Source: Rhizobium sp. NLR16a
GTDB lineage: Bacteria; Pseudomonadota; Alphaproteobacteria; Rhizobiales; Rhizobiaceae
NCBI RefSeq assembly: GCF_017948245.1
Contig: NZ_CP072865.1
Span: 248,001-312,000, forward strand
Length of the DNA stretch: 64,000 bases
Direction: 5' to 3'
How positions within the stretch are numbered: the first letter of the stretch is position 1; the number at the start of each line of letters is the position of its first letter. The notes beneath the pieces are model-generated. The model saw only the letters and a program-made list of their open reading frames with translations. It did no database searches and had not been told where the DNA came from. Shown piece after piece: positions 2,289-55,976 of this stretch. A program made the translations under genes and the position numbers.

Positions 2289-4031
2289 CTAGAAAAGCGC
2301 GTCGGCGAAAAGATCCACGTCATTTTCGGTTTTGGCGGTCTCGGCGGGCGCTGTAATGTTTTCATTGCTTGCCGGGATGATGTCGCGATGAATGTTTCGC
2401 TCCTGGACCATCGTGTAGAGCTTGAAGATCTTGCGGTCGAGCGGTGCGATGGCCTCCGCGAGATCAGAAATATCGGCGACATCGATGCCGGCGACGCCTT
2501 TGAGCACATCGGCGCAGCGGGCAAGGACATCGCCGAGTTCGTGCTGGAAGTCGAGCTTGCCGATCAGCAGGCCGATCTTGGCGGCAACCTCGCGGCCGTT
2601 TTCGGCGAGCACCTTCAGCTCGTTTTCCATGACATTGGCCGCGGAACGGATGTTGCCGACAGCCGAGGTCAGGCTCTCGTCCAGTCCGCCGGCCGCAGCG
2701 TCCGTGGCGGGAGCCACGCGCCCGGCAGCGGCTTCGAGCGCCGGCAGGCCGTTGACGATGGCGTCGGCGGATTCATCGAGCTTGCCGGCGAAGATGCGCA
2801 GCTCGGCGGTGACGACATTGATCGACTTGCCTTCCTCGCCAAGCCGGCTGCAGCGCAGATTGGTGTTCAGAGCCATGTAATGGATGTCGGTCCTGACAAC
2901 GCGGATGTTGACGATGGCTTCGGAAAGCTTGGCGGCCGTGCCGATCGTCGAATGGCTTACCTGGTCAGCCTGCCGGCTTGCCGTGTCAACCTGTTTGACG
3001 ATCTCGTGGGCGGCGGAAACGCTGGATTCCAGCGCGCGCATGAAATTGCCGCCGGCTTCGCCGCTTTCGGTGCCCATTTGATCGCGCAGTTTGAGGATTT
3101 CCCGCATGTCGTGGTCGAAACTCGCAATCGTCTTGACGACGTTTTCCGAATCCCGCTGGAAATTGATCCACATGTCGTTGATCTGCGCCGCGGTCAGATG
3201 GTGAACGACATTCTGAAGACGCTGGCGCGCACCGGCGTCGAGCCTGGCGCCATCTTCGCCCGCGAGGAAATCTTCAAGCATCGAAAAGGTTGCCTGTACA
3301 TGTTCGATGCGCTGACGGGTGATGTCGCCGATCTGCAGGGCCGATAGAGTCGAGCTGACCTTGCTCTGGACGCCGCGTGCGATCGCGCCGACCTCGCGGG
3401 CGAGGACACCGAGGTTTTTGCGGTGTTCGGCGATCTTGGCGGCATCGTCGCGCAGGGCTCCGGCGACGGCCGGAACGGTATCGGCGTAACTCCTGGAAAC
3501 GTTGGCTCCGAAGGAGGCGGCGAACTTGACCTCTTTCTCAAGGCTGTCGAGATGGGCGGCGAAACGATTGACCTCATCGGTGCCCGAATAGATTCGCTCC
3601 AGAATCTCCTGAGCAAAGCCGGCGAATTCGGCGAGGCCGGCGCCAGTGATCTTGACAGTCACGGCAAAGGTTCTGAGATAGCGCATCGTCTCCTGCATGT
3701 CGGCGACGTGTTTGCGCAGATCCCTGCCGGTGTGCGCCAGCGAGATGAGCGCCTGCTGGCGATTTTCTTCGGTGACCGGCAATGCAGTCAGGATTTCCAC
3801 GGTGGCGCGGAGATCGGCGCCGGTATCGCTCGCCTCCTTGTCATCGAGTACCTTGGCGACACTTTCGAGCGAGTTCAGCAGACGGTTGAGGACATCCATC
3901 ACCGACAGCAGCACCGCTCCGCCCTCGAGAAATCGCTCCTCGACTTGGCTGCGGGCGGATTCCAGGATCTGACTGATCTCCCGCCCCGATGTGTAGGCTG
4001 CAGCGTTGGATGTTACCAGAGCGTGTGCCAC
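2289..4031 (-). CDS. Soluble methyl-accepting-chemotaxis-like protein, degenerate tip
   Basis: 580 residues, almost entirely helical and predicted coiled coil, with no transmembrane segment or signal peptide. The stretch around residues 382-415 (HYMALNTNLRCSRLGEEGKS followed by INVVTAELR) aligns with the receptor signalling-hairpin tip ([27 protein letters not shown]), but the canonical E-A-A-R-A-G residues are altered. It could therefore be a cytoplasmic receptor-like partner of the adjacent che products, or a protein that occupies receptor arrays without normal kinase control. The start is GTG at 4031 with AAGG about 8 bases upstream; no good in-frame ATG lies near. It is divergent from the STAS-cheY-cheA operon across a 340-base region. 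Function is inferred from the fold and from context only. Confidence 0.65.
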   Translation of the reverse strand: MAHALVTSNAAAYTSGREISQILESARSQVEERFLEGGAVLLSVMDVLNRLLNSLESVAKVLDDKEASDTGADLRATVEILTALPVTEENRQQALISLAHTGRDLRKHVADMQETMRYLRTFAVTVKITGAGLAEFAGFAQEILERIYSGTDEVNRFAAHLDSLEKEVKFAASFGANVSRSYADTVPAVAGALRDDAAKIAEHRKNLGVLAREVGAIARGVQSKVSSTLSALQIGDITRQRIEHVQATFSMLEDFLAGEDGARLDAGARQRLQNVVHHLTAAQINDMWINFQRDSENVVKTIASFDHDMREILKLRDQMGTESGEAGGNFMRALESSVSAAHEIVKQVDTASRQADQVSHSTIGTAAKLSEAIVNIRVVRTDIHYMALNTNLRCSRLGEEGKSINVVTAELRIFAGKLDESADAIVNGLPALEAAAGRVAPATDAAAGGLDESLTSAVGNIRSAANVMENELKVLAENGREVAAKIGLLIGKLDFQHELGDVLARCADVLKGVAGIDVADISDLAEAIAPLDRKIFKLYTMVQERNIHRDIIPASNENITAPAETAKTENDVDLFADALF

Positions 4032-4371: not shown

Positions 4372-4701
4372 TTGGATACTCAGAGCCAATATTGTGAATC
4401 TATAAATTTACCGGGCGTGCTAAGCATCCGCCATGTGGCCGAGCTACATTCGAAGCTTAGTGACGAGTTTAACAGTAAAGACGACATTGTCGTTAGCGTT
4501 ATCGCTGATGCTGAAGCTGACCTCAGTTTCATACAGCTTATCGAGGCCGCGCGTCGCCAAGCAAAGTCTGACGGAAAGACGTTCAGGCTTTTTTCTCCCG
4601 CCAGCGGCTCAGTGCTGAACGTACTTGAGCGTGCCGGTTTCATCGAATCCTTCGATCAAGAAGACTTAAAGTTCTGGTTGCATAAAGAGGTGACATTATG
4701 A
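4372..4701 (+). CDS. STAS-domain protein, first gene of the chemotaxis operon
   Basis: 109 residues with an anti-sigma-antagonist-like STAS fold. It has an N-terminal beta strand (LPGVLSIRHV), then VVSVIADAEADLSFIQLIEAA with a serine at the position phosphorylated in SpoIIAA-type proteins, then FRLFSPASGSVLNVLERAGF. In related chemotaxis clusters a small STAS protein precedes cheY and cheA; its role is not settled and may be to sit in the array or be phosphorylated. The start codon is TTG at 4372, chosen because AGGAGG lies exactly 5 bases upstream (4361-4366). The stop overlaps the cheY start (ATGA). Codon usage is visibly less GC-rich at third positions than in cheY and cheA. Confidence 0.75.
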   Translation: MDTQSQYCESINLPGVLSIRHVAELHSKLSDEFNSKDDIVVSVIADAEADLSFIQLIEAARRQAKSDGKTFRLFSPASGSVLNVLERAGFIESFDQEDLKFWLHKEVTL

Positions 4702-5066
4702 GTGCCAACATTCTGACGGTAGACGATTCCGCTAGCATCCGTCTGACAACAAAGGTCACCCTGACCAATGCCGGTTACAGCGTCACCGAAGCGGTGAACG
4801 GGGCTGAAGGTCTTATGGCGGCCAAGGCCAGCAGCTTCGATCTGATCGTAACCGATCTCAACATGCCTGTTATGGACGGGCTGACGATGATCGAAGAACT
4901 GCGCAAGCTGCCGGCGCAGGCCGGTGTTCCGATTATCTTTCTAACGACGGAATCTGACGCCGATCTCAAGGCACGTGCCAAGGCCGCCGGCGCGACCGGC
5001 TGGCTGACCAAGCCGTTCGACCCGGAAAGTCTCGTGAAGATCGTGAAGAAGGTCCTCGGCAGATGA
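4698..5066 (+). CDS. cheY: Chemotaxis response regulator CheY
   Basis: 122-residue stand-alone receiver domain. The acidic pocket D9-D10, phospho-acceptor D53 (LIVTDLNMPVMDG), conserved T83-T84 (FLTTES) and K105 (LTKPFD) are all present, so it should be phosphorylated by CheA and either signal to the motor or other output, or act as a phosphate sink. There is no output domain. It overlaps STAS upstream and cheA downstream by four bases each (ATGA), which indicates translational coupling. The target is unknown: no flagellar gene lies in the window. Confidence 0.92.
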   Translation: MSANILTVDDSASIRLTTKVTLTNAGYSVTEAVNGAEGLMAAKASSFDLIVTDLNMPVMDGLTMIEELRKLPAQAGVPIIFLTTESDADLKARAKAAGATGWLTKPFDPESLVKIVKKVLGR

Positions 5067-7117
5067 GTACGCTCGACCCCGTCGCCGTATTCCGCATGGA
5101 GGCTGCCGAATGCCTCGAAGCGATCGAGGCCGGTCTTCTCGACCTCACTCACCAACTCGACAATAAGGATCTCGTCGATGCGGTATTCCGCGGGCTTCAT
5201 ACGCTCAAGGGATCGGGCGCGATGTTCGGTTTCGAGGCGCTGGCGGCCTTCACCCACCATTGTGAAACCGCTTTCGACCGCGTCCGAAAAGGCGAGGTCG
5301 CGGCGACCAGCGAGCTTGTCGCCGCCGTTCTCGCCGCCCAGGACCATATGCGTGCCCTCGTCGACCAGCCCGACGCCGATTACGGCGATACCGGGCATAA
5401 GCTTCTGGCACAACTGCAGTCCGCGGTCGGCGCCAAGGCTGCGGCACCCGCCACAGCGACAGCCGCCGTCGCAGCGCCCGTGCAAGGAGCGTCGGCGAAC
5501 AAGACGAAGAACAGCTGGCGCATCCGATTCAGCCTGCCGGCCAATGCGATGGCCAACGGCACCAATCCGCTCGGTCTGCTGGACGAACTGCGCGATCTCG
5601 GCGAATGTACCGTACGCGCCGACACGTCGGCCATTCCGCCTCTCGACGAGCTCACTTCGACGGAACTCTACATTTCCTGGGATGTGACGCTGATGAGCGA
5701 ACAGGACCGTTCGGCGATCGACGATGTCTTCATCTTCGTGCTCGACGACATGGAACTCAGCGTCGAGGAGATCGGCAGTGCAGCAGCGGCAACGGCCGCT
5801 CCGGCTGTAGCAAGGCCGGCGCCTGCCGCTGCCGCCTCAGTATCGCCACCACCTGTCCCGGCGGCTGGTGTGCCGGAATTCCGTCCCGTCGAAGCGGTTC
5901 CCGTCAGGCGTGAGGCGCCCGCTGCCGTCAGCCAGGCGAAGGCTGCCGAGAACGTGCGCGTCCCGGCAGAGCGCTTGGACGAACTGATGGACCGTGTCGG
6001 TGAGCTCGTGATCGCGCAATCGCGCCTCAGCCAGCTCGCCAGCGCCAGCACCGATATCGCATTGCGCTCCGTCTCGGAAGAAATCGAACGTCTGTCCGGC
6101 GAATTGCGCGACACGATGATGGTGCTGCGCATGGTGCCCGTTGCGACCCTCTTCTCCCGCTTCCGCCGCCTTGTGCACGATCTTGCCCGCGAGACCGGCA
6201 AGGTGATCGAGCTGGTGATGGAGGGCGAGAGCACCGAGGTCGACAAAACGGTGATCGAGCGGCTGGCCGATCCGCTGGTGCACCTGGTGCGCAACTCGAT
6301 CGATCACGGCCTCGAAGTACCCGCCGACCGCCTTGCGGCCGGCAAGGCCAAGGCCGGCACGATCACGCTTTCGGCCCGTCAGGCCGGTGGCGAGGTGATC
6401 ATCTCGATCAAGGACGACGGCCGCGGAATCAACCGTGAACGGGTCCGCGCCAAGGCGGAATCCTCCGGCCTCATCCATCCGGGCCAACCGCTTTCGGACC
6501 CCGAGCTCTTGCAACTGATCTTTGCTCCCGGCTTTTCGACGGCCACCGCGATCACCAATCTGTCCGGCCGCGGCGTCGGCATGGACGTGGTCAAGAAGAC
6601 GGTTGAAGAGCTTCGCGGCGCAATCGATATCGTCAGTGTGCCCGGACAGGGTTCGGAAGTGTCGCTGCGCATTCCGCTGACGCTTGCCATTATCGACGGC
6701 CTGCTGGTGCGTGTCGGCTCGGGCCGTTACGTCATCCCGCTTTCGGCCGTCGAGGAATGCCTCGAACTGTCGCTCGAGGAGGATCTGCGCTCGCGCGGCC
6801 GTAGCTTCATCTCGTTGCGCGACAGCCTGGTGCCGTTCCTACGCCTACGCGATCTTTTCCGCACCGGCACGAAACCCGATGTGCACCAGAAGGTCGTGGT
6901 CATCTCGACCGGAACCGAGCGCGTCGGCCTCGTCGTCGACCAGATCATCGGCGACCACCAGACGGTCATCAAGTCGATGTCGAAACTGCACAATGACGTG
7001 GCGACCTTTTCGGGCGCCACCATTCTCGGCGACGGCAGCGTCGCACTCATTCTCGACGTCGGGCACCTGGTTGCCGCGGGTCAGCAACAGGAGGCGCAAT
7101 TGCGGGTAGCAGGATGA
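5063..7117 (+). CDS. cheA: Chemotaxis histidine kinase CheA
   Basis: 684 residues with the usual CheA order. The N-terminal Hpt domain has phosphorylatable H46 in GLHTLKGSGAMFG. An Ala/Pro-rich linker region (about 125-150) and a P2-like segment (about 150-240) follow, then a second Ala/Pro linker (about 240-285). The dimerisation helices start at RVPAERLDELMDRVGELVIA. The ATPase domain has an N-box (LVHLVRNSIDHGLE), a G1 box (DDGRGI) and a G2 box (LSGRGVGMDVVKKT). A C-terminal CheW-like regulatory domain begins near residue 540. It autophosphorylates under receptor control and passes phosphate to CheY and CheB. The start overlaps the cheY stop (ATGA) and its stop overlaps the cheW start. All catalytic motifs are intact. 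Confidence 0.95.
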   Translation: MSTLDPVAVFRMEAAECLEAIEAGLLDLTHQLDNKDLVDAVFRGLHTLKGSGAMFGFEALAAFTHHCETAFDRVRKGEVAATSELVAAVLAAQDHMRALVDQPDADYGDTGHKLLAQLQSAVGAKAAAPATATAAVAAPVQGASANKTKNSWRIRFSLPANAMANGTNPLGLLDELRDLGECTVRADTSAIPPLDELTSTELYISWDVTLMSEQDRSAIDDVFIFVLDDMELSVEEIGSAAAATAAPAVARPAPAAAASVSPPPVPAAGVPEFRPVEAVPVRREAPAAVSQAKAAENVRVPAERLDELMDRVGELVIAQSRLSQLASASTDIALRSVSEEIERLSGELRDTMMVLRMVPVATLFSRFRRLVHDLARETGKVIELVMEGESTEVDKTVIERLADPLVHLVRNSIDHGLEVPADRLAAGKAKAGTITLSARQAGGEVIISIKDDGRGINRERVRAKAESSGLIHPGQPLSDPELLQLIFAPGFSTATAITNLSGRGVGMDVVKKTVEELRGAIDIVSVPGQGSEVSLRIPLTLAIIDGLLVRVGSGRYVIPLSAVEECLELSLEEDLRSRGRSFISLRDSLVPFLRLRDLFRTGTKPDVHQKVVVISTGTERVGLVVDQIIGDHQTVIKSMSKLHNDVATFSGATILGDGSVALILDVGHLVAAGQQQEAQLRVAG

Positions 7118-7623
7118 GTGCAACAGCAGCAGCCGAACGTTTCGACAATCATTGGAGCTATGCCGAGGAAGTCGAGGTCCTGACATTCGATCTCAACGGC
7201 GAGACCTTCGCGCTGGAAGCGGTCATCGTCCAGGAAATCCTGGACCTGCTTCCGGAGACCGCGGTGCCGGGCAGTCAGCCCTTCGTCGCCAGCGTCATCA
7301 ACTTCCGCGGCAAGGTCATACCGCTCGCCGACCTGCGTCTCGCCTTCGGGATGGAGGCGGAGGAGGCAACGATCGATAGCCGTTTCATCGTCATCGAGAT
7401 CGATCTCCAGGGCGAGCCGACGCTCGTCGGCCTCAGAACCGATAAAGTGAACGAGGTGACGACGCTCGCAAAAAACGCGAGCGAGGCGCCGCCGAGCGTC
7501 GGGATGCGCTGGCGCGCCGACTACATCAACTGCCTGGTGAAGAGGGGCGGAGAGTTCATCATTCTCCCGAATCTGCAGGCGATTTTTTCATCCAGGCATG
7601 ATGCGGCGGGAGCCGGCAATTGA
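7114..7623 (+). CDS. cheW: Chemotaxis coupling protein CheW (first copy)
   Basis: 169-residue CheW adaptor that links receptors to CheA in the array. Recognisable segments are VEVLTFDLNGETFALEA at about 22-38, NFRGKVIPLADLRLAFGM (the two-subdomain junction with conserved N-x-R-G-x-x-x-P-x-x-D-L-R), and the C-terminal VKRGGEFIILPNLQAIF strand. There is an N-terminal extension of about 20 residues before the fold. The start overlaps the cheA stop (ATGA at 7114). A second cheW follows the three receptor genes, so the cluster has two adaptors of different sequence, perhaps with different receptor preference. Confidence 0.93.
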   Translation: MSATAAAERFDNHWSYAEEVEVLTFDLNGETFALEAVIVQEILDLLPETAVPGSQPFVASVINFRGKVIPLADLRLAFGMEAEEATIDSRFIVIEIDLQGEPTLVGLRTDKVNEVTTLAKNASEAPPSVGMRWRADYINCLVKRGGEFIILPNLQAIFSSRHDAAGAGN

Positions 7624-7653: not shown

Positions 7654-9357
7654 ATGCGACTGACAATCAAGACGAAGCTGGTGACCGCGTTCACCTTCAT
7701 CATCCTCATGCTCTTGGGCACCGCCGCTTACGGTATCTTCAGCCTCGGGTCGCTGAATGATACGATTGGCAATCTCCTCGCCGGCCCGGCAGCCCGCCTC
7801 GATCTTGCGCAGCAGATCAACATCGCGCAGCTCGAAGCGATCCGCCAGCAGAAGAACCTGCTTAATGCCCGTGGCGCCGATGAAGCGGCCGCGGCGATCG
7901 ACAAGGGCAATCAGGCCCGCAAGGACTTCAGTGATGCCTTCAATCAAGCGTTGGCGCTTGCCACGGAGGAAGGCAAGGCGCGTTGGGCTCGTATTGCCGA
8001 GTTTTCGAAGTCCTTCAACGCAGCTGACGACCAGATCCGTGACTCCGTGAAGACCGGCAACGTGGAAGGTGCAAACACCGTCTCGATCACGACCGCGCGC
8101 GCTGCCGCCAACGGGATCGACTCGACGCTCGCCGAAATTCTGGCGCTTGAGAAGCAGCGCATGAAGGCCGCCGACGCCGGTGCCGACGCGCAGTATGAGA
8201 CGACACGCACGACGATGGTCGCCGTCGCTGCCGTGGCACTACTGATTGCCGCGATAACCGCCTTCTGGATCGCCAGCACGATCAGCAAGGGCCTCAGCCG
8301 CGCCAACACCGTGGTTCGCGAAGTGTCTGAAGGCGACCTGACGAAAATGGCCGATATTACGAGCCATGACGAAATCGGCGAGCTTCTGGGTAATGTCAAC
8401 GTCATGATCGAACGCCTGCGGGGCGTCGTCGCCGACGCGATCTCGGCCGCCGAGAACGTCTCGTCCGGCAGCCAGCAGCTTTCGGCAAGTTCCGAACAGG
8501 TGTCGCAGGGCGCGAGCGAACAGGCGGCTTCTGCCGAAGAGGCGTCCGCCTCAATGGAAGAGATGGCCGCCAATATCAAGCAGAACGCCGACAATGCCGC
8601 CCAGACGGAGAAGATCGCCCGTCAATCCGCCAAGGATGCGGAAGCCAGCGGCGAAGCGGTAACCCGTGCTGTCGACGCCATGCGCACGATTGCCGAGAAG
8701 ATCGGCATCGTGCAGGAAATCGCCCGTCAGACCGATCTCCTGGCCCTCAATGCCGCCGTCGAAGCGGCACGCGCCGGCGAACACGGCAAGGGTTTTGCGG
8801 TCGTGGCCTCGGAAGTGCGCAAACTTGCCGAGCGTAGCCAGTCGGCAGCAGCCGAAATCAGCTCGATGTCGAGCGATACCGTCAAGGCCGCCGCCGATGC
8901 CGGTGAGATGCTCGGCCGCCTGGTGCCCGACATCCGCAAGACGGCGGAACTCGTTTCCGAGATCAGCGCCGCCTGCCGCGAGCAGGATATCGGCGCCTCT
9001 CAGATCAATGAGGCGATCCAGCAGCTCGACAAGGTGACGCAGCAGAATGCCGGCGCCTCGGAGCAGATGTCGGCAACGTCCGAGGAACTCGCCGCTCAGG
9101 CGGAAGAATTGCAGACGTCGATCGCCTTCTTCAAGGTCGATACGACGGGCAGCACGCGGCCCGGCGCCCAGAAGATGCCGTCGAAAGGCCCAACCAAGGT
9201 GGCCAAGGCCCCGGCCCGCAAGCCTGCACAGCAGGCCCAAAGCCAGGGCCGCGGTCAGACGGTTTCGGCTCAGCAGCAGCGTCTCAAAGGCTTTGCTCTC
9301 GATATGTCGATGGGCGGTCCGGACGCCAGTGACGATGATTTTCGGGAAAGCGCGTAG
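7654..9357 (+). CDS. Methyl-accepting chemotaxis protein, one HAMP unit (tandem receptor 1)
   Basis: 567 residues. TM1 is at about 8-29 and TM2 at about 187-207, flanking a roughly 155-residue helical periplasmic region of four-helix-bundle type. One HAMP unit (about 208-258, [20 protein letters not shown]) leads directly into the signalling domain through [18 protein letters not shown]. The hairpin tip has the canonical [19 protein letters not shown]. After it comes a basic, Ala/Pro/Gln-rich linker and the tail [19 protein letters not shown]. There is no NWETF-type CheR-docking pentapeptide. A GGGG-containing ribosome site precedes ATG 7654. The ligand is unknown. The signalling half is nearly identical in DNA to receptors 2 and 3. 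Confidence 0.92.
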
Positions 9358-9423
9358 GCGTTCCTGGGGACGCGCATAGCGTTCCCGGCGAGGCACCTGA
9401 GCGCCTTCGCCCTCATCGGATAT

Positions 9424-9479
9424 CTCGGGCCACTCCCGTGGCCCGAGGTGGAAATATCCCCAACGCGTGTAGGCGTTGG
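9424..9479 (+). other. Two strong hairpins between receptor genes 1 and 2
   Basis: CTCGGGCCAC (9424-9433) and GTGGCCCGAG (9438-9447) form a perfect 10-base-pair stem with loop TCCC. CCAACGC (9460-9466) and GCGTTGG (9473-9479) form a second perfect stem of 7 pairs with a 6-base loop. No T-run follows, so neither looks like an intrinsic terminator. An mRNA-stabilising or processing role within the operon is more likely. The full gap is 9358-9621. Confidence 0.55.
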
Positions 9480-9621
9480 CGCTGCGACCGATCGATGTCC
9501 GGCTGCCGGGAAGTGAATGCAGTCGCTTTCCCTCTTTCAGACACATCACTCTGAAGTTCGGCGTTCCCAGACCGGAACGTCTCTCTATCCAATCGTTTTG
9601 GCGCATAAAACGGGGTATCAC

Positions 9622-11547
9622 ATGCGTTTCACTATCAAACTGAAATTGGGTCTCGCTTTCGGGATCATGACGCTGCTGCTGATCGGCATTGCAGTTTATG
9701 GAAGCTTTAGCCTCGGCACATTGAACGAGGCGAGCGGCAACATGATCGACGGCCCGATGCGCCGGCTGGAACTGGCGCTGAACGCCAACATCGCCGAAGT
9801 CAACGCCATTCGGGCTCAGAAGAACGCGCTGCTTTCCACCGATCCGGACACGGCCGCCGGCTTCTACAAAGAGGCCGACCAGAACCTGCAGGCCATGTTC
9901 GACGCTGTCGACGCCGGCTTGGCCATCGCCTCTCCGGAAGGCAAGCCGCATTGGGAGAAGCTGCGGAGCGTTGGCGGGAAATTCCGCGAGAAGTCCGCCG
10001 AGCTGCAGCAACTCGATGCCAGGGGTGATAAGGCATCCGCGCTCGCGCTTTCACTTGGCGATCTCCGGGCGATGACCGGGGACATGGGCGATGCGATTGC
10101 CGCCCTCACGGAGATCCAGCGCAAAGGCATGCAAGCGACCGATCAGTCGAACAGCGATCTTTACAATTCGACCAAGCTCATCCTCACCACAGCATCCGGA
10201 ATCGCCGTGCTTGTGGCCCTCGGCGCCGCATTGTGGATCACGCTCGGCATCAACAATGGTCTGAGAAAGATCACGAGCGTCGCAAACGCCGTGGCAATCG
10301 GCGATCTCAATCAGAAAGTCGACGTCAGGACCAATGACGAGATCAAGGACCTCATCGATACGGTCAACACCATGACCGCCAATCTGCGATCGACCGCCGC
10401 CCTTGCCGACCAGATCGCCATGGGCGATCTGACCACCGATGCCAAGCCTCTCTCGGACAAGGACGCGCTCGGGATTGCGATGCAGAGCATGATCGCCAAT
10501 CTGAGGACCACGGCGGGGATTGCCAACCAGATCGCCAATGGCGATCTCACTGTGTCTCCGAAGCCGCTCTCCGACAAGGATGCACTGGGCCTTGCGCTGG
10601 AGCAGATGGTTGAGCGGTTGCGCGGCGTGGTCGCAGACGCGATTTCGGCCGCCGAAAATGTTTCGGCCGGCAGCCAGGAGCTTTCGGCAAGTTCCGAACA
10701 GGTGTCGCAAGGCGCCACCGAGCAGGCCGCGTCGGCCGAAGAGGCGTCGGCCTCGATGGAAGAGATGGCCTCGAACATCAAGCAGAATGCCGACAATGCC
10801 GCGCAGACGGAAAAGATCGCCCGGCAGTCTGCAAAGGATGCGGAAGCCAGCGGCGAGGCGGTGACGCGCGCCGTCGACGCCATGCGCACGATCGCCCAGA
10901 AGATCGGCATCGTGCAGGAAATCGCCCGTCAGACCGATCTGCTTGCCCTTAATGCGGCGGTGGAAGCAGCACGCGCCGGCGAACACGGCAAGGGTTTTGC
11001 GGTGGTGGCCTCGGAGGTGCGCAAGCTTGCCGAACGCAGCCAGTCGGCCGCCGCCGAAATCAGCGCCATGTCGAGCGATACCGTGACAGCCGCTCAGGAG
11101 GCCGGCGAAATGCTGGGCCGCCTGGTGCCCGACATCCGCAAGACGGCGGAACTCGTTTCCGAGATCAGTGCTGCCTGCCGTGAACAGGATATCGGTGCGG
11201 CCCAGATCAACGAGGCGATCCAGCAGCTCGACAAGGTCACGCAGCAGAACGCCGGCGCCTCCGAACAGATGTCTGCAACTTCAGAGGAGCTCGCCGCGCA
11301 GGCGGAAGAACTGCAGACGTCGATCGCCTTCTTCAAGGTCGATACGGCAGGCAACCGCCAGTCCCGCACGCCGGCCGTCAAGATGACGGTTCGGGGTGCA
11401 GCTCCCACCGCTGCGCGCAAGCCTGCGGCCAAGAAACCGGCTGCCGGCAGCGTGGCCGCCCAACAGGCTCGTGCGAAGGGGTTTGCTCTCGACATGTCGA
11501 TGGGCGGACCAGATATTGCGGACGAAGAATTCCGCGAGAGCGCGTAG
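9622..11547 (+). CDS. Methyl-accepting chemotaxis protein, three HAMP units (tandem receptor 2)
   Basis: 641 residues. TM1 is at about 8-28 and TM2 at about 187-208. The periplasmic domain resembles that of receptor 1 ([24 protein letters not shown] start). After TM2 a HAMP unit (about 209-256, [20 protein letters not shown]) is followed by two 39-residue HAMP-like repeats at 257-295 ([20 protein letters not shown]) and 296-334 ([20 protein letters not shown]), then the signalling domain with tip [19 protein letters not shown]. The tail is [19 protein letters not shown] after a Lys/Ala/Pro-rich linker. ATG 9622 ([10 protein letters not shown]) was chosen because it matches the starts of both neighbours; the upstream frame back to 9517 has no family resemblance. 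Confidence 0.92.
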
Positions 11548-11565
11548 TGCTCTTCGGACACAGGA

Positions 11566-11592
11566 CTGGGGCCGCGGCGACAGCGGCCCCAG
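11566..11592 (+). other. Strong hairpin between receptor genes 2 and 3
   Basis: CTGGGGCCGC (11566-11575) and GCGGCCCCAG (11583-11592) form a perfect 10-pair stem with a 7-base loop, 18 bases after the receptor 2 stop. No T-run follows. It sits in the same position relative to the stop region as the hairpins after receptor 1, which suggests a shared role in mRNA stability or in partial termination within the operon. Confidence 0.5.
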
Positions 11593-11716
11593 CATCGAAC
11601 CGGTGCATGGACGCACTTGGTCATGCCGGCTCTGCCGGCAACGCATGAAGCGTTTTCACGACGGCACTATGTGCGATTTCGCGGAATACCCGCTGCGGTA
11701 CTAACGAGGGCTTGAA

Positions 11717-13534
11717 ATGCGCTTCACAATCAAACTCAAACTAAGCTTGGTATTCGGTTTTATCGTTCTACTCACGTGCGGCATGGCGGGTCTTGCGATC
11801 TATACTCTTTCGGCGTTGAACAGTGAGATATCGATCATGGTCGCCGGTCCGGTCGCCAACCTGCGCGATTCGGGCGATCTTTCCGATGCCGTCATGCGCT
11901 CTATCCGCGCCGAAAAGGACGCGATCATCAATACGGATCCGGTCAAGATTACAGGCTATGTCGAGGAAATTGCGCAACAGCACGAAGTCATCAAGACACT
12001 GCAGGGCCGTCTCGCCGCCTCGAACGATGCGGAGATCAAGAAGGAGATGGCCAAGTTCGGTGATCTCTATAGTAAATGGACCACGTTGCAGGATCGCATC
12101 GCCGGTCTCGCCACCGAGAATACGACGGAATCAAATGCTCAAGCCGGCGTCATCTCAATGGGCGAAGGGCAGCAGGCGACGGCCCAGCTGCTCGGTATTC
12201 TCACCAAGCTGAACGACACCGTGACAGCCAATCTCGCGGAAACGGATGCGGCCACCAACGAGCAGTATGCCCAATCCCGTAATCTGCTTGTCATGATGAC
12301 GGTGGGTTTGATCTTTGTCTCGTCGGCGGCCGCGATCTGGATCCTGCTTAACATCTCCCGCGGCCTCAAGCGCGCCGTCAACCTCGCCGACGCGGTCAGC
12401 ATCGGGGATCTCGAGCAGAAGATAGAGCATAAGAGCAATGACGAAATCCGCGATCTCGTCGATTCGATGAGCAGGATGACGGCAAATCTGCGCAACACCG
12501 CGACGATCGCCAACCAGATTTCGAACGGCGACCTCATGGTATCCCCGAAGCCCCTTTCAGAGAAGGATACGCTCGGCATTGCGCTCGAACAGATGGTCGA
12601 GCGGCTGCGCGGCGTCGTCGCCGACGCGATCTCGGCAGCCGAGAACGTCTCGTCCGGCAGCCAGCAGCTTTCGGCAAGTTCCGAACAGGTGTCGCAGGGC
12701 GCGAGCGAACAGGCGGCTTCGGCCGAAGAGGCGTCGGCCTCGATGGAGGAGATGGCCGCCAATATCAAGCAGAACGCCGACAATGCCGCCCAAACGGAGA
12801 AGATCGCGCGGCAGTCGGCCAAGGACGCGGAAGCGAGCGGTGATGCGGTGACGCGTGCCGTGCAGGCGATGCGGACTATTGCCGAGAAGATCAGCATCGT
12901 TCAGGAAATCGCTCGTCAGACGGATCTTCTCGCTCTCAATGCCGCTGTGGAGGCGGCGCGTGCCGGCGAACACGGCAAGGGCTTTGCAGTGGTCGCGTCG
13001 GAAGTGCGCAAGCTTGCCGAACGCAGCCAGTCGGCCGCGGCCGAAATCAGCGCCATGTCGGGCGATACGGTCAAGGCCGCCCAAGAAGCCGGCGACATGC
13101 TCGGCCGCCTGGTGCCCGACATCCGCAAGACGGCGGAACTCGTTGCCGAAATCAGCGCGGCCTGCCGCGAGCAGGATGTCGGTGCGGCCCAGATCAACGA
13201 GGCGATCCAACAGCTCGACAAGGTGACTCAGCAGAATGCCGGCGCCTCCGAACAGATGTCGGCGACCTCGGAAGAACTTGCCTCCCAGGCGGAAGAACTG
13301 CAGACCTCGATTGCCTTCTTCAGGGTCGATACGGCAGGCAACCGCCTGTCACGCGCGCCGGCCGTCAAGATGACGGCCCGCAGCCCGGCTCCCAGCGCCG
13401 CCCGCAAACCGGCGATCAAGAAACCGGCGGCCGGCAGTGTCGCCGGCCAGCAGGCGCGGGTGAAAGGTTTCGCACTCGATCTCTCCATGGGCGGTCCCGA
13501 TGATGGCGACGCCGAATTCAAGGAAAGTGCATGA
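11717..13534 (+). CDS. Methyl-accepting chemotaxis protein, two HAMP units (tandem receptor 3)
   Basis: 605 residues. TM1 is at about 8-30 and TM2 at about 189-209 around a helical periplasmic domain. HAMP 1 (about 210-259, [20 protein letters not shown]) is followed by one 39-residue HAMP-like repeat at 260-298 ([20 protein letters not shown]), then the signalling domain with the canonical tip. The tail is [19 protein letters not shown]. The repeat is close in sequence to the third unit of receptor 2, so the units were probably gained or lost by recombination between the paralogues. The stop overlaps the start of the second cheW (ATGA at 13531). Confidence 0.92.
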
Positions 13535-14013
13535 TCATGGCAACGACATCTCTGGAAGCGCAATTCGTGACCTTCAGCCTCGGTGAGGAAATTTTTGCCG
13601 TGCCGGTCGAGGTCGTGCGGGAAATCCTCGACTATGCGGAAGCGTTCAAGATTCCGAATGGTCCCGACTATCTGCTCGGCCTGCGCGACGTGCGTGGGCA
13701 GGGCGTGCCGACCATCGATCTTCGATTGAAGCTCGGCATGACGAAGACGGTGCCGACGCCACATACGCGGGTGCTCGTGCTCGACGTGCCGATGGAAAGC
13801 CGGCTGCTAACGCTCGGCCTCGTCGCCGACCGCGTCTTCGAAGTTACACCGTTCCGGCGTGACCAGATCGAGGCGGCGCCTGACATCGGTGTGCGCTGGC
13901 GCTCGGACTATATCGCCGGCGTCGTTCGCCGTGAAAAAGGCTTTGTCGTCATCATCGATCTCGCACGTCTCTTGTCGCGCGAGGATGCTTCTGCACTGCA
14001 ATCGGCGGCATGA
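13531..14013 (+). CDS. cheW: Chemotaxis coupling protein CheW (second copy)
   Basis: 160-residue CheW adaptor with [40 protein letters not shown] and [12 protein letters not shown] strands in the CheW order. It differs clearly from the first CheW. The first ATG (13531) overlaps the receptor 3 stop. A second in-frame ATG at 13537 gives [10 protein letters not shown] and is an equally plausible start. The stop overlaps the cheR start (ATGA at 14010). It probably pairs the three tandem receptors with CheA. Confidence 0.92.
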
Positions 14014-14900
14014 TCGCGCGTCAACCCGGAGTAATGCGTTCCATGAGTATGGCAGCAGCGGTGGAAACCCAATTGCCGGGGGACCGGATCAGCAAGCGGA
14101 ATTTCGAAAAGCTTGCCCGGTTCATCTACGACTATAGCGGCATCAAGATGCCGCCGACCAAGCTGACGATGCTCGAAGGGCGGCTGAGACGCCGCCTTCG
14201 TGCGACCAATCATTCGACCTTCGACGATTATTGCGACTTCCTGTTCAATCATGATGGGCTTGCCCAGGAAACCGTCTACCTGATCGACGTGGTGACGACC
14301 AACAAGACCGACTTCTTCCGGGAAGCCAAGCATTTCGATTACCTGCAGACCGTGGCGCTGCCGGCGATCGCCAATAGCGGGGTGCGCACCATTCGTACCT
14401 GGAGCTCGGCCTGTTCGACGGGGGCCGAACCCTATACGATGGCGATGGTGCTGGCTGAATTCGCGGAAGGCCGCAATGACGTTTCCTATAGCGTGCTTGC
14501 CACCGATCTTTCCACCGACGTGCTGCAGACGGCGCGCCGGGGCATCTATCCGGAAGACCTGATCGCACCCGTGCCGCGCGACCTGCAGCGCAAATATGTG
14601 CTGGTCGCCAAGCAGCCGGGCCGCAAGGAGGTGCGCATAAGCCCTAAACTGCGCAGCAGGGTGGGGTTTGCACGGATGAACCTGATGGACGACAAATATC
14701 CGGTCGGCGACTTGATGAACATCATCTTCTGCCGCAACGTGCTGATCTACTTCGACAAGCAGACGCAGGCGGGCGTGCTCAACCGCCTCTGCAATTGCCT
14801 GGCGAAGGGCGGCTACATGTTCATCGGCCACTCCGAGTCGATCACCGGTTTCGACCTGCCGCTGAAACAGGTTTCGAACACGGTGTTTCAGCGTATCTAG
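14010..14900 (+). CDS. cheR: Chemotaxis protein methyltransferase CheR
   Basis: 296 residues. The N-terminal helical domain carries the substrate-binding basic helix ([10 protein letters not shown]). The SAM-binding domain begins with [16 protein letters not shown] (motif I) and continues with [15 protein letters not shown] (motif II), [15 protein letters not shown] (post-motif) and MFIGHSESI. It methylates glutamates of the receptors, opposing CheB. There is no TPR extension. The start overlaps cheW (ATGA). In-frame ATGs at 14034 and 14043 are alternatives and would remove a weakly conserved N-terminus. All SAM-binding motifs are intact. Confidence 0.94.
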
Positions 14901-14908
14901 AGGCGGTT

Positions 14909-16006
14909 ATGCGCAAGAAAATCCGCGTTCTCATTATCGACGATTCCGCCAGCGTCCGACAGACGCTGGCCCATGTGCTTGAGCAGGATCCCGACATCGA
15001 GATCATGGCGGTGGCGTCTGATCCCTTCGTCGCGGCGCGCAGGCTGCTGGACGAGATCCCCGATGTCATCACGCTCGACGTGGAGATGCCGCGCATGGAC
15101 GGCATCACCTTCCTGCGCAAGCTGATGGCACAGCGGCCGATCCCGGTCGTGATGTGCTCGTCGCTGACGGAGGCGGGTTCGGAAACGTTGATTCAGGCTT
15201 TGGAGGCGGGCGCCGTCGACGTCATCCTGAAATCGAAGATCGGCGCCGCCGACAGCCTTGCCGATGACGCCATGCGGATTCGCGAAGTTGTCAAGAGCGC
15301 TTCGCAGGCGCGGCTTTCGACCGTGCGCCGCGCCGCGGGAACCATTCGTTCCGCTTCCGCCGAGGGGCCGGCCAAGAAGCTGACGGCGGATGCCATGCTG
15401 CCGCCGCCGACGGGGCGGGCGATGGCGAAGACGACGGAGATGGTTGTCTGCGTGGGTGCCTCCACCGGCGGCACCGAGGCGCTGCGCGAATTCCTGGAGG
15501 AACTGCCGGCCAATGCGCCCGGCATGGTGATCGTCCAGCATATGCCGGAGAAATTCACTGCCGCCTTCGCCAAACGTCTGAACGGGCTCTGCGAGGTCGA
15601 GGTCAAGGAGGCCGCCGACGGCGATCCGGTGCTGCGCGGCCATGTGCTGATCGCGCCTGGTGACAGGCACATGCTGCTCGAACGCCAGGGTGCGCGCTAT
15701 CATGTCAGTGTGAAGAGCGGGCCGTTGGTTTCCCGCCACCGGCCTTCCGTCGACGTGCTCTTCCGTTCGGCGGCGCGCTCGGCCGGCTCGAACGCCATGG
15801 GGATCATTATGACGGGCATGGGCGACGACGGTGCGCGCGGCATGTTGGAGATGCATGAAGCCGGCGCCTACACGGTGGCGCAGGACGAGGCGAGCTCCGT
15901 TGTCTTCGGCATGCCGAAGGAGGCGATTGCCAAAGGCGGGGTCGACCGCATTCTGCCGCTCGATCAGATCGCCCGCGAAGTCCTGATAACGCAGCAGAAG
16001 TTCTAA
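14909..16006 (+). CDS. cheB: Chemotaxis methylesterase CheB
   Basis: 365 residues. The receiver domain has D11-D12, phospho-acceptor D57 ([13 protein letters not shown]) and a conserved KSK at about 105. A linker follows, then the C-terminal esterase. The catalytic serine is in [13 protein letters not shown], the histidine in IVQHMPEKF and the aspartate in [14 protein letters not shown]. It demethylates or deamidates receptor glutamates when phosphorylated by CheA. ATG 14909 lies 8 bases after the cheR stop. It is the last gene of the cluster; no cheD, cheZ or cheX accompanies it. Confidence 0.94.
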
Positions 16007-17006: not shown

Positions 17007-17118
17007 GCGCATGAAAAACCGGCTGTTGTAAAGTCACGGTTTTCGCCCCGGGATACTTCAATTCGGCACAATGTTGCTCTAGTCTCCGCCAGCAATGAGT
17101 TCGGAGGCTGCTGAACCT

Positions 17119-18222
17119 ATGGAAAATGTGAATGTGGCGGAGATCGGCTCCACCGAAAAGACGGCCGGCGGTTATACCTACAGGCTCTCGAGCCCCATGC
17201 CCTTCCTCTGGACGATGCTGCTTTTTCTCGTCATTGTCGGGTTCATTGCCGCGATCCTCTTTCGGCAGACGCAGACCGCCTTCATGCACAATCCGGGCCT
17301 CAACGGCCTGATCCTCGGCGTTCTCGCAGTCGGAATCGTCCTTGTTTTCAATCACGTGCTGGCGCTTCGCCCCGAAGTGCGCTGGTTCAATTCCTTCCGC
17401 GCTGCCGGCAGCGCGGATAAGGTCAACCGTAACCCACGGCTGCTTGCGCCGATGCGGGCGCTGATCGGCAGCCGCAAGGCGTCGGTGGCGCTGTCGACGA
17501 CCGCGCTGCGTTCGATTCTCGATTCGATCGCCACCCGCCTCGACGAATCGCGTGACGTTTCGCGCTACCTGATCGGCCTCCTGGTCTTCCTTGGCCTGCT
17601 CGGCACGTTCTGGGGTCTCATTGGCACGATCGGCTCGATCAGCACCGTTATCCAGTCACTCGATCCCGGTTCGAACGGCACGGCGGACGTGCTCTCTGCA
17701 CTGAAGGAGGGGCTGTCGACGCCGCTTTCAGGCATGGGGCAGGCCTTCTCGTCGTCGCTGCTCGGCCTTTCCGGTTCGCTCATTCTCGGCTTCCTCGACC
17801 TACAGGCCGGTCGCGCGCAGAATCGCTTCTACACGGAACTGGAAAACTGGCTCTCCTCGGTCACCGATGTCGGCTCCGATCTTGCGCCGGCGCTCGATGC
17901 CGTTGCCGGGTCTTCCTCGGACGACATGCGCGCACTCTCCGAGTATCTGCGCAAGGTCTCCGAAGAAGGCGGTGTCGGAAGCCAGCGCTCTGTCGCCGCC
18001 ATGGCAAGCCTTGCCGAAGGCATTCAGGGTCTGGTCAAGAATATGCGCAACGAGCAGCAGATGCTGCGTGACTGGATCGAGGCACAGCAGGACGAGGCGA
18101 AAGCCATGCGCCGCACGCTCGATCGGTTGGCCGAGCGCATCGGCCTGCAGGAGCGGGGCGGCGAGCGGGCCGAGCGCCTGCGCGAGCGCACGAGCCATGC
18201 AGAAAAGAGCGAGGGCAAATAA
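17119..18222 (+). CDS. MotA/TolQ/ExbB-type proton channel protein
   Basis: 367 residues from ATG 17119 (GGAGG 11 bases upstream); an in-frame ATG at 17095 would add eight residues but has no ribosome site. Four membrane segments can be seen: about 22-44, 62-84, 150-175 and 195-225. The TM3 sequence LLGTFWGLIGTIGSIS and TM4 GMGQAFSSSLLGLSGS are the pore-lining signatures of the ExbB/TolQ/MotA superfamily. After TM4 comes a long cytoplasmic coiled coil (about 240-360) ending in a charged, Arg/Glu-rich tail. With the downstream MotB/OmpA-like gene, 3 bases away, it should form a proton-driven stator-like complex. It is not TolQ or ExbB proper, since no tolR/tolA or exbD/tonB is present, and the driven process is unknown. 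Confidence 0.8.
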   Translation: MENVNVAEIGSTEKTAGGYTYRLSSPMPFLWTMLLFLVIVGFIAAILFRQTQTAFMHNPGLNGLILGVLAVGIVLVFNHVLALRPEVRWFNSFRAAGSADKVNRNPRLLAPMRALIGSRKASVALSTTALRSILDSIATRLDESRDVSRYLIGLLVFLGLLGTFWGLIGTIGSISTVIQSLDPGSNGTADVLSALKEGLSTPLSGMGQAFSSSLLGLSGSLILGFLDLQAGRAQNRFYTELENWLSSVTDVGSDLAPALDAVAGSSSDDMRALSEYLRKVSEEGGVGSQRSVAAMASLAEGIQGLVKNMRNEQQMLRDWIEAQQDEAKAMRRTLDRLAERIGLQERGGERAERLRERTSHAEKSEGK

Positions 18223-18225
18223 GCC

Positions 18226-19257
18226 ATGGCACTTGCCCGCAACCGCCGCCGCGAACGCACGGTGGATTACTGGCCGGGCTTCGTCGATGCGTTGTCGACG
18301 CTGCTCATTTCGATCATGTTCCTGCTGACGGTCTTCGTCGTCGGGCAGTTCATCCTCAGCCGCGAAATCACTGGGCGCGACGAGGTGCTCAATCGTCTCA
18401 ATAGCCAGATCAACGAGTTGACGCAGCTTCTGGCGCTCGAAAAGGGCAGCAATCAGGATCTCCAGGATTCAGTCGCCAACCTACAAGCCTCGCTCGCGAC
18501 TGCTGAAAGCGACCGGTCGCGGCTTCAGGCGTTGCTGAACGCCGGCTCGGGCGGCCAGGATGCGGCTCAGAAGCGGATCGGCGCAATGACGCAGGAGCTC
18601 GACGAGCAGAAGCAGGTGAGCGAACGGGCGCTGAGCCAGGTCGAACTCTTGAATCAGCAGATTGCCGCACTTCGCAGCCAAATCGCCGCGGTCGAAGCGG
18701 CACTGCAGGCATCCGAGGAGAAGGACCGGGTCTCGCAGACCAAGATCGCCGATCTCGGCAGTCGCCTCAACGTGGCGCTGGCGGCGCGCGTGCAGGAACT
18801 GAACCGTTACCGTTCCGACTTCTTCGGCCGGTTGCGCGAGATCCTATCGGATCGCGAGAATATCCGCATCGTCGGCGACCGGTTCGTCTTCCAGTCGGAA
18901 GTGCTGTTTCCCTCGGGCGGCGCGGATCTCAATCCGGACGGGCAGACGGAAATGGCGAAGCTCGCCGCCGCTCTCCTTGATCTCGCCAAGGAAATTCCCC
19001 CGGAGATCAACTGGGTGCTGCGTGTCGACGGCCATACCGATAATGTGCCGCTTGCCGGGACCGGCCGCTATCGCGACAACTGGGAACTCTCCTCAGAGCG
19101 CGCCATTTCGGTCGTCAAGTTCCTGATTGGCCAGGGCGTCCCTGCCGACCGACTCGTCGCCGCCGGCTTCGGTGAGTTCCAACCGATCGCGCCGGGCGAT
19201 ACGCCGGATGCGCGCGCCACCAACCGCCGCATCGAGCTGAAGCTGACCGAGAAATGA
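18226..19257 (+). CDS. MotB/OmpA-type peptidoglycan-binding stator partner
   Basis: 343 residues. The N-terminus is basic, then one membrane helix (about 20-43) contains D21 in FVDALSTLL, the proton-accepting Asp position of MotB/ExbD/TolR proteins. A long periplasmic coiled coil (about 50-190) follows. The C-terminal OmpA-like domain (about 215-343) carries VDGHTDNVPL, LSSERAISVVKFL and ATNRRIEL, the diaminopimelate-binding OmpA/MotB signature. The gene starts 3 bases after the MotA-like stop. The coiled-coil length is greater than in usual MotB. The pair should pump protons and anchor to the cell wall. Canonical flagellar motA/motB would sit in a flagellar cluster, which is absent here. Confidence 0.82.
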   Translation: MALARNRRRERTVDYWPGFVDALSTLLISIMFLLTVFVVGQFILSREITGRDEVLNRLNSQINELTQLLALEKGSNQDLQDSVANLQASLATAESDRSRLQALLNAGSGGQDAAQKRIGAMTQELDEQKQVSERALSQVELLNQQIAALRSQIAAVEAALQASEEKDRVSQTKIADLGSRLNVALAARVQELNRYRSDFFGRLREILSDRENIRIVGDRFVFQSEVLFPSGGADLNPDGQTEMAKLAAALLDLAKEIPPEINWVLRVDGHTDNVPLAGTGRYRDNWELSSERAISVVKFLIGQGVPADRLVAAGFGEFQPIAPGDTPDARATNRRIELKLTEK

Positions 19258-55792: not shown

Positions 55793-55976
55793 ACCTGCGG
55801 TTTTAGAGCGCGCATTTACCGCGAATTAAAAGAGATGCCTGAATTCTAGTTCATCGAATGTGCGAGGGGCTTCGTTCCACAAGAATAAGTCCCCGATGTT
55901 CTGTTGACAGGTCAGCCGGCCGGGGATGCACCGCGTGCCCAGGCTGGCAGGCGCCGTTCAGAAGGGTTCATTGTAT

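Follow-up and report, generated by a model that had tools for sequence, protein, structure and literature searches.

The window analysed here, 64,000 nucleotides of Rhizobium sp. NLR16a (contig NZ_CP072865.1, positions 248,001 to 312,000), carries a chemotaxis (che) operon in which three successive genes, R1, R2 and R3, encode receptors with one, three and two HAMP units, respectively. This 1/3/2 series is a recurrent rule in the related loci examined and not an oddity of one operon; the pattern, in which neighbouring receptors of a locus differ in unit number, was strong. Units beyond the first were 39 residues each, and pairwise identity among R1 to R3 was 91–92% in the signalling domains and 21–33% in the ligand-binding domains. 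A preliminary description of this DNA had proposed the 1/3/2 series and the near-identity of the signalling domains; the identities above bore out the latter, and the unit coordinates given below, together with the 39-residue steps of relatives, confirmed the former. The receptors and their HAMP units were located in the window as follows:

7654..9357, + strand: R1, with a 4HB_MCP ligand domain, one HAMP and a short signalling domain
8281..8409, + strand: single HAMP of R1, full DExG motif (DEIG)
9622..11547, + strand: R2, 4HB_MCP, three HAMP units (reading frame open from 9517)
10249..10371, + strand: R2 HAMP unit 1, membrane-proximal, NDEIK
10378..10494, + strand: R2 HAMP unit 2, 39 residues, divergent, DKDALG
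10495..10611, + strand: R2 HAMP unit 3, 39 residues, divergent, DKDALG, adjoining the signalling domain
11717..13534, + strand: R3, 4HB_MCP, two HAMP units
12353..12475, + strand: R3 HAMP unit 1, NDEIR
12482..12598, + strand: R3 HAMP unit 2, 39 residues, divergent, EKDTLG

All three reading frames were intact (7654–9357, 9517–11547 and 11717–13534); for R2, alignment with R1 and R3 suggested that the methionine of MRFTIK at 9622 is more likely the start than 9517.

Across 137 distinct loci, receptor length changed by whole units over a range of 1–7, and the 335 receptors they encode had one unit in 125 cases, two in 114, three in 71, four in 24 and seven in one. The numbers formed exactly the set {1..k} in 97 of the 113 distinct loci with at least two receptors ({1,2,3} in 46, {1,2} in 36 and {1,2,3,4} in 15), and the other 16 loci held {1,3} (7), {1,2,4} (5), {2,4} (2), {1,2,3,4,7} (1) and {1,1,2} (1). 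Equal numbers were found in a single one of 301 within-locus pairs, against a mean of 91.2 and a minimum of 65 in 10,000 shuffles over receptors, and all numbers were different in 67 of the 68 loci with at least three receptors. The count was again 1/301 when units were assigned by length only, with no hand settings, and when loci alike at 95% were collapsed, 1/217 pairs shared a number and 66 of 78 loci had {1..k}. For the 112-locus subset represented on the ligand-domain tree, none of 274 pairs had the same number, while permutation over uniform ligand-domain clades, which preserves part of the relatedness and is not a full phylogenetic null, yielded a mean of 95 and a minimum of 15 (5,000 permutations); before two receptors were corrected, the same permutation set 2/274 against a mean of 96 and a minimum of 17. 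Among pairs with more than one unit each, the clade permutation gave a mean of 41 and a minimum of 11, and 0/99 were observed. The seven-unit receptor (L134, 14126–16546) was the fifth of a five-receptor locus.

The loci were pooled from the genus (59 other genomes searched), from named genomes (74 loci) and from order, class and family samples. They were gathered by similarity to R2 and to the proteins P0043, P0037 and P0124, with the best 80 of 513 candidates taken for one set, and the set frequencies are therefore biased. The total counted was 391 receptors in 157 loci, from which the distinct loci above were drawn; some loci represented different contigs of the same genome, and near-identical loci remain among the 137. 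Receptors of the class were counted inside each fetched stretch, the ends of which may cut others off. Fragments at contig ends (L094, L159) and receptor 2 of L180, with its HAMPs deleted, were dropped before the count, as were 6 of 400 matches with less than 380 bits or without the tip motif (two pieces of L225, one each from L230, L242 and L251, and the receptor at window position 55908). The census did not extend to L104–L108, L236, L237 and the short pieces L001–L059 and L183–L212.

Unit number by length alone equalled that from walking along the motifs in 391/391 counted receptors; for 9 of these the motif count had been inspected by hand. For six receptors whose HAMP is a variant (in L214, L218, L221, L224, L227 and L232), inspection and length led to an assignment of one unit, and receptor 2 of L216, which without a Pfam scan was seen to resemble the CHASE3 receptors of L161 and L224, was set in the same way to three. 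Receptor 4 of L161 and receptor 2 of L224 had been candidates for two-unit collisions; these were rejected, as both proved to be of the CHASE3 type, with a canonical HAMP located further upstream and a transmembrane-to-tip length that fits three units. With the first counts for these two, same-number pairs would be 3/301. In relatives, spacing from the second transmembrane segment (TM2) to the hairpin tip peaked at 149/151 residues (109 of 340 rows), 188/190 (95), 227/229 (64), 266/268 (26) and 383 (1), together 295/340 with duplicates included; most remaining rows were a few residues off, as the hydropathy window chose another end of the transmembrane segment, and a few were fragments or other receptor types. 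This quantisation of length indicated that the unit counts are more than chance. The anchor of the signalling domain lay 105 residues before the tip in 334/340 rows, and compensation of length within the signalling rod was rejected because of this constancy. In 120 listed proteins of 3,441, rounded unit numbers of 2, 3, 4, 5, 6 and 8 occurred in 28, 33, 46, 3, 9 and 1, respectively.

The metagenomic protein P0043 had eight HAMP units. Genomes G037 and G057 encode, on other contigs, receptors with this class of signalling domain (L104, L105) in which a hydropathy scan detected no transmembrane segment; these are possibly soluble members. In receptor 2 of L180, the R2 orthologue of R. leguminosarum Tri-43 (frame from base 6100), GDLNQK of HAMP 1 joins VERLRGVV, with the loss of about 97 residues and all complete HAMPs; the gene may encode a natural receptor without HAMPs, or the gap may stem from faulty assembly.

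The 39-residue repeats reported in the preliminary description are real, in a phase 4 residues off relative to the units used here, and they behaved as HAMP units, as had been claimed. A Pfam search returned 1, 2 and 1 HAMP stretches in R1, R2 and R3, the divergent units being caught in part. In an AlphaFold2 model of an R2 fragment (pLDDT, the model's per-residue confidence score, 85.9), helices at 2–28, 41–68, 84–107 and 123–204 alternated with connectors, one within each of the three units; R2 is predicted on this model to be a concatenated HAMP stack, and the possibility that the repeats are plain linker helices was rejected on the predicted helix-connector-helix arrangement in every R2 unit. 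The top three Foldseek matches to the model among 350,542 chains were Aer2 poly-HAMP structures (E 0.03–0.07; none at or below 0.001), and the last HAMP unit with the signalling helix aligned to Tsr. The middle units compared with single HAMPs by hhalign at E 0.00025 and a probability of 43, and alone they had no matches among the sequences of the PDB. We infer that the description was also right in that unit number should set the distance from membrane to kinase. It thus stood on the HAMP repeats, the series and the distance, and what it overlooked was the recurrence in the loci of relatives, where neighbours differ and mostly form {1..k}.

The motifs followed the position of the unit. DExG was intact in 80/81 single HAMPs; the first of several HAMPs had DEx(K/R) in 157/164 cases and DExG in 4; and later units had DxLG without the E in 237/240, so that the divergent poly-HAMP trait (DExG lost, one glycine kept) was seen in later units. 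In 41 wider loci (L213–L252, L154, L159, L177), first and single units followed their rule less closely (24 DEx(K/R) and 10 DExG among 34 first units; DExG in 17/23 single units), and the later-unit motif held in 45/45. PMC3570549 assigns DExG to membrane-associated HAMPs and a solitary glycine to divergent ones; the positional signature agrees with that statement and adds detail to it.

Unit number changed at least 34 times on the ligand-domain tree and at least 62 times on the signalling-domain tree (292 rows, FastTree, without a shuffled control), the latter figure being perhaps too high because this domain is short and conserved. Ligand domains 97% identical were carried on two units in L122 and on four in L132, and ligand domains 90–97% identical were found with both two and four units; sequence comparison thus indicates that unit number is not bound to a single ligand lineage. 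The most alike paralogue pairs differed as well, ligand domains 89%, 83%, 82% and 78% identical being associated with 2/3, 3/2, 3/2 and 4/2 units. The two-unit and three-unit genes of L214 are duplicates, with ligand domains 89% identical and 87–100% DNA identity per 150-bp window over 1.5 kb from the ligand domain into the signalling domain, with one 117-bp unit removed; a longer stretch including the tail was 86% identical by ungapped comparison. Unit 2 of the short gene was a hybrid, 94% identical to unit 2 of the long gene before the GDL codons and 96% identical to unit 3 after them. The hybrid unit and the match between the duplicates read as the footprint of exact unit loss by unequal recombination, and at the level of DNA L214 records the duplication of a gene and the removal, in register, of precisely one unit. 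L218 and L221, from two genomes of the genus of L214, each had a single receptor of the class within the stretch read, and it carried one unit. Recent unit gain was rare, with 3/116 adjacent unit pairs above 85% DNA identity; adjacent units were ca. 92% identical in DNA in L129 and L152.

Recombination of the kind recorded in the L214 hybrid could by itself be the cause of the pattern, if unequal exchange in the repeats makes new paralogues differ without any function being served. Such a mutational bias should also create equal numbers in time, the pairs that look recent are just the 3/116 given above, and {1..k} in 97 of 113 loci is not what it predicts; we regard it as very unlikely. The main rival is inheritance without selection, in which an ancestral Che2 locus had one receptor per height, lineages lost or swapped pieces, and numbers differ since the slots are old. 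It is possible for most loci, as 90 of 100 one-unit receptors form one ligand-domain clade, all sets use 1–4 apart from one seven-unit receptor, 212 of 283 receptors have their nearest signalling domain in a same-number receptor of another locus, and 33 of one set of 113 distinct loci show the gene order (1,3,2). However, L214 made its two- and three-unit genes through duplication and unit loss, the seven-unit receptor of L134 and the near-identical adjacent units of L129 and L152 show numbers changing, and neutral duplicates should leave some close paralogues with equal numbers. The re-association of numbers with ligand domains speaks against inheritance alone, and we lean against it.

We favour, at a probability of roughly 0.45, the reading that the number of HAMPs encodes the height and register of a receptor and would in this way prevent co-expressed receptors that are nearly identical from entering one another's dimers or arrays. 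We infer both this segregation and a selection that would keep the numbers different. With an equal signalling rod in all receptors, each 39-residue unit would lift the membrane anchor by one bundle, which we estimate at ca. 2 nm per unit (up to 3.5 nm has been quoted for a HAMP). Subunits carrying n and n+1 units could then not form an in-register dimer, and dimers that differ in height would fit poorly in one flat array patch, so that co-encoded receptors would stay apart as homodimers and homotypic clusters, all reporting to the same CheA and CheW. A new paralogue would persist only if its number were free, leading to {1,2}, {1,2,3} and {1,2,3,4}. Such a code would account for the rule, for the reuse of numbers with different ligand domains and for the filling of the lowest free number. 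According to PMC6759762, the height of an array depends on receptor length, and receptors expected to occupy the same array are predicted to be equally tall; earlier work cited there found a 14-residue insertion (ca. 2 nm) enough to segregate receptors. We extend this reading only tentatively to HAMP copy number as a self-recognition barcode, by which dimers and clusters would form only among equal numbers, one kinase would serve a separate, insulated array for each receptor, a new paralogue would take the lowest free rung, and exact loss or gain of the 117-bp unit would re-barcode any ligand domain.

Several points weigh against a height and register code. The precedent insertions sit within the signalling rod, and here the rods are equal and the tips could still align. 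The ligand domains of R1 to R3, just 21–33% identical, may alone prevent mixed dimers. Because the loci are related, the pairs greatly outnumber the events behind them; an old {1,2,3,4} set that lost members differentially would yield different numbers without selection; and the agreement in number of nearest signalling domains between loci, for the 212 of 283 receptors noted above, points the same way. The lone exception to the rule, L242, has units of 2, 1 and 1, its two one-unit receptors having long ligand domains 52% identical to each other. Finally, segregation of arrays by height is here a prediction from sequence.

Graded function would likewise want different numbers, and each HAMP might damp, amplify or invert the signal, giving graded or opposite-sign responses. 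PMC3570549 describes HAMP conformers that can propagate opposite signals and proposes alternating states along tandem HAMPs. A gain model by itself does not forbid equal numbers in one locus, and neither number nor parity follows ligand lineage, as seen in the ligand domains 90–97% identical with two and four units and in those 82–89% identical with two and three; we consider such tuning of gain or polarity unlikely as the reason for the rule.

A height and register code may also be set beside the other receptors of the genome. A scan of its 6.58 Mb in 8 contigs gave 29 MCPsignal matches, three of them R1 to R3; 20 others were measured, and six were left out (three without the tip motif and three others). 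The distance from TM2 to the tip was 233–241 residues in 19 of the 20 and 270 in one, compared with 149, 187 and 229 for the three receptors of the operon in the same measure. Even the closest pair among the others (L013 and L015, 2 kb apart) had 241 and 233. This uniformity against the stepped lengths of R1 to R3 suggested that the receptors that plausibly make up the main array are of one length and those of Che2 stepped. The 20, which were not classed by heptads, are assumed to be of the 36H class by analogy with R. johnstonii 3841, all other receptors of which were placed in that class in PMC7617929. The receptor at window 55908–58289 (L019), with dCache below and HAMP over the cut-off, had a TM2-to-tip distance of 241 and belonged to the uniform class.

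The operon is compact and lies on the + strand of the window in the order STAS, CheY, CheA, CheW, R1, R2, R3, CheW, CheR and CheB. Besides the receptors it comprises:

4372..4701, + strand: STAS-domain protein, first gene of the operon (Pfam STAS_2)
4698..5066, + strand: CheY-type response regulator (Pfam Response_reg)
5063..7117, + strand: CheA kinase, called from the translation and from gene order
7114..7623, + strand: CheW, upstream copy (Pfam CheW)
13531..14013, + strand: CheW, downstream copy (Pfam CheW)
14010..14900, + strand: CheR methyltransferase (Pfam CheR)
14795..16006, + strand: CheB methylesterase frame (Pfam CheB_methylest and Response_reg); from its overlap with CheR, the true start can be guessed to lie near 14897

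Pfam placed 4HB_MCP_1, HAMP and MCPsignal over the cut-off in each of R1, R2 and R3, the layout of methyl-accepting chemotaxis proteins. The MCPsignal match was 143 residues in all three, compared with 150–158 in the 23 better-scoring receptors of the genome. The nearest named relative of R2 among the matches listed was R. aethiopicum (94%). The orthologous locus in R. johnstonii 3841 is che2 (L111), whose receptors are identical to those of L089 with units of 1, 3 and 2. Gene order, the short signalling class and the orthology of the receptors with those of L111 fit a Che2 system of class F8 with 34H receptors, class names taken from PMC7617929 without counting the heptads of R1 to R3. R1, R2 and R3 share a C-terminal tail, F(R/K)ESA, behind a variable linker (9340–9357, 11530–11547 and 13517–13534). 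By analogy with the E. coli pentapeptide, the tail might be a tether for CheR or CheB.

Just upstream of the operon, on the minus strand (window 2292–4031), lies a 580-residue open reading frame whose MCPsignal match stayed below the cut-off (E 1.4e-4) and whose product may be an unusual receptor-like protein. Downstream, window 17095–19254 encodes a MotA/ExbB-like protein (just below the cut-off) followed by a coiled-coil protein of the OmpA family.

Chains of several HAMPs, and variation in HAMP number, are in themselves already known; most chemoreceptors have one or two HAMPs and few have more (PMC6628036). The poly-HAMP of P. aeruginosa Aer2 (PDB 3lnr, 4i3m, 4i44), the source of the top Foldseek matches, likewise consists of concatenated HAMPs with continuous AS2-AS1 helices and divergent units that lack DExG and keep the glycine (PMC3570549). 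However, Aer2 is soluble, with three HAMPs, a PAS and two HAMPs (PMC7184735), whereas the receptors described here are membrane 4HB receptors with 39-residue units whose number differs between neighbours. The receptors McrA, McrB and McrC of che2 in R. johnstonii (leguminosarum) 3841 (RL4031–4033) are encoded by the orthologous operon, an F8 system with 34H receptors (PMC7617929); the main text of that paper has the word HAMP once, without numbers per receptor. In A. brasilense, the 36H and 38H arrays comprise receptors with one to three HAMPs, and height is taken to decide which array is joined (PMC6759762). There, receptors of a shared array are predicted to be equal in height, whereas those of one locus here are systematically unequal. 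Tandem HAMP arrays also occur in the di-HAMP of FrzCD, in fungal class III histidine kinases and in the HAMP-array kinase 9trk, the titles and abstracts on which made no co-encoded stepped series apparent. In the literature on HAMP number and on tandem or poly-HAMP with chemoreceptors or Che2, as represented by titles, abstract starts and passages, with most subscription journals and supplements outside the search, no account was found of co-encoded receptors with stepped, all-different numbers.

In R. johnstonii 3841, Che2 was reported to affect bacteroid development and nodule maturation and not free-living motility or competitive nodulation (PMC7617929). These loci could shed light on the purpose of HAMP chains of different length, as they offer receptors that have almost identical signalling parts and differ in carrying 1 to 7 units, some of them in lab strains that can be cultured, together with a sharp rule with one exception in 113 loci. 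If height or register is the reason for that rule, HAMP number would represent a general way to insulate paralogous receptors from one another and would provide a design rule for chimeric receptors.

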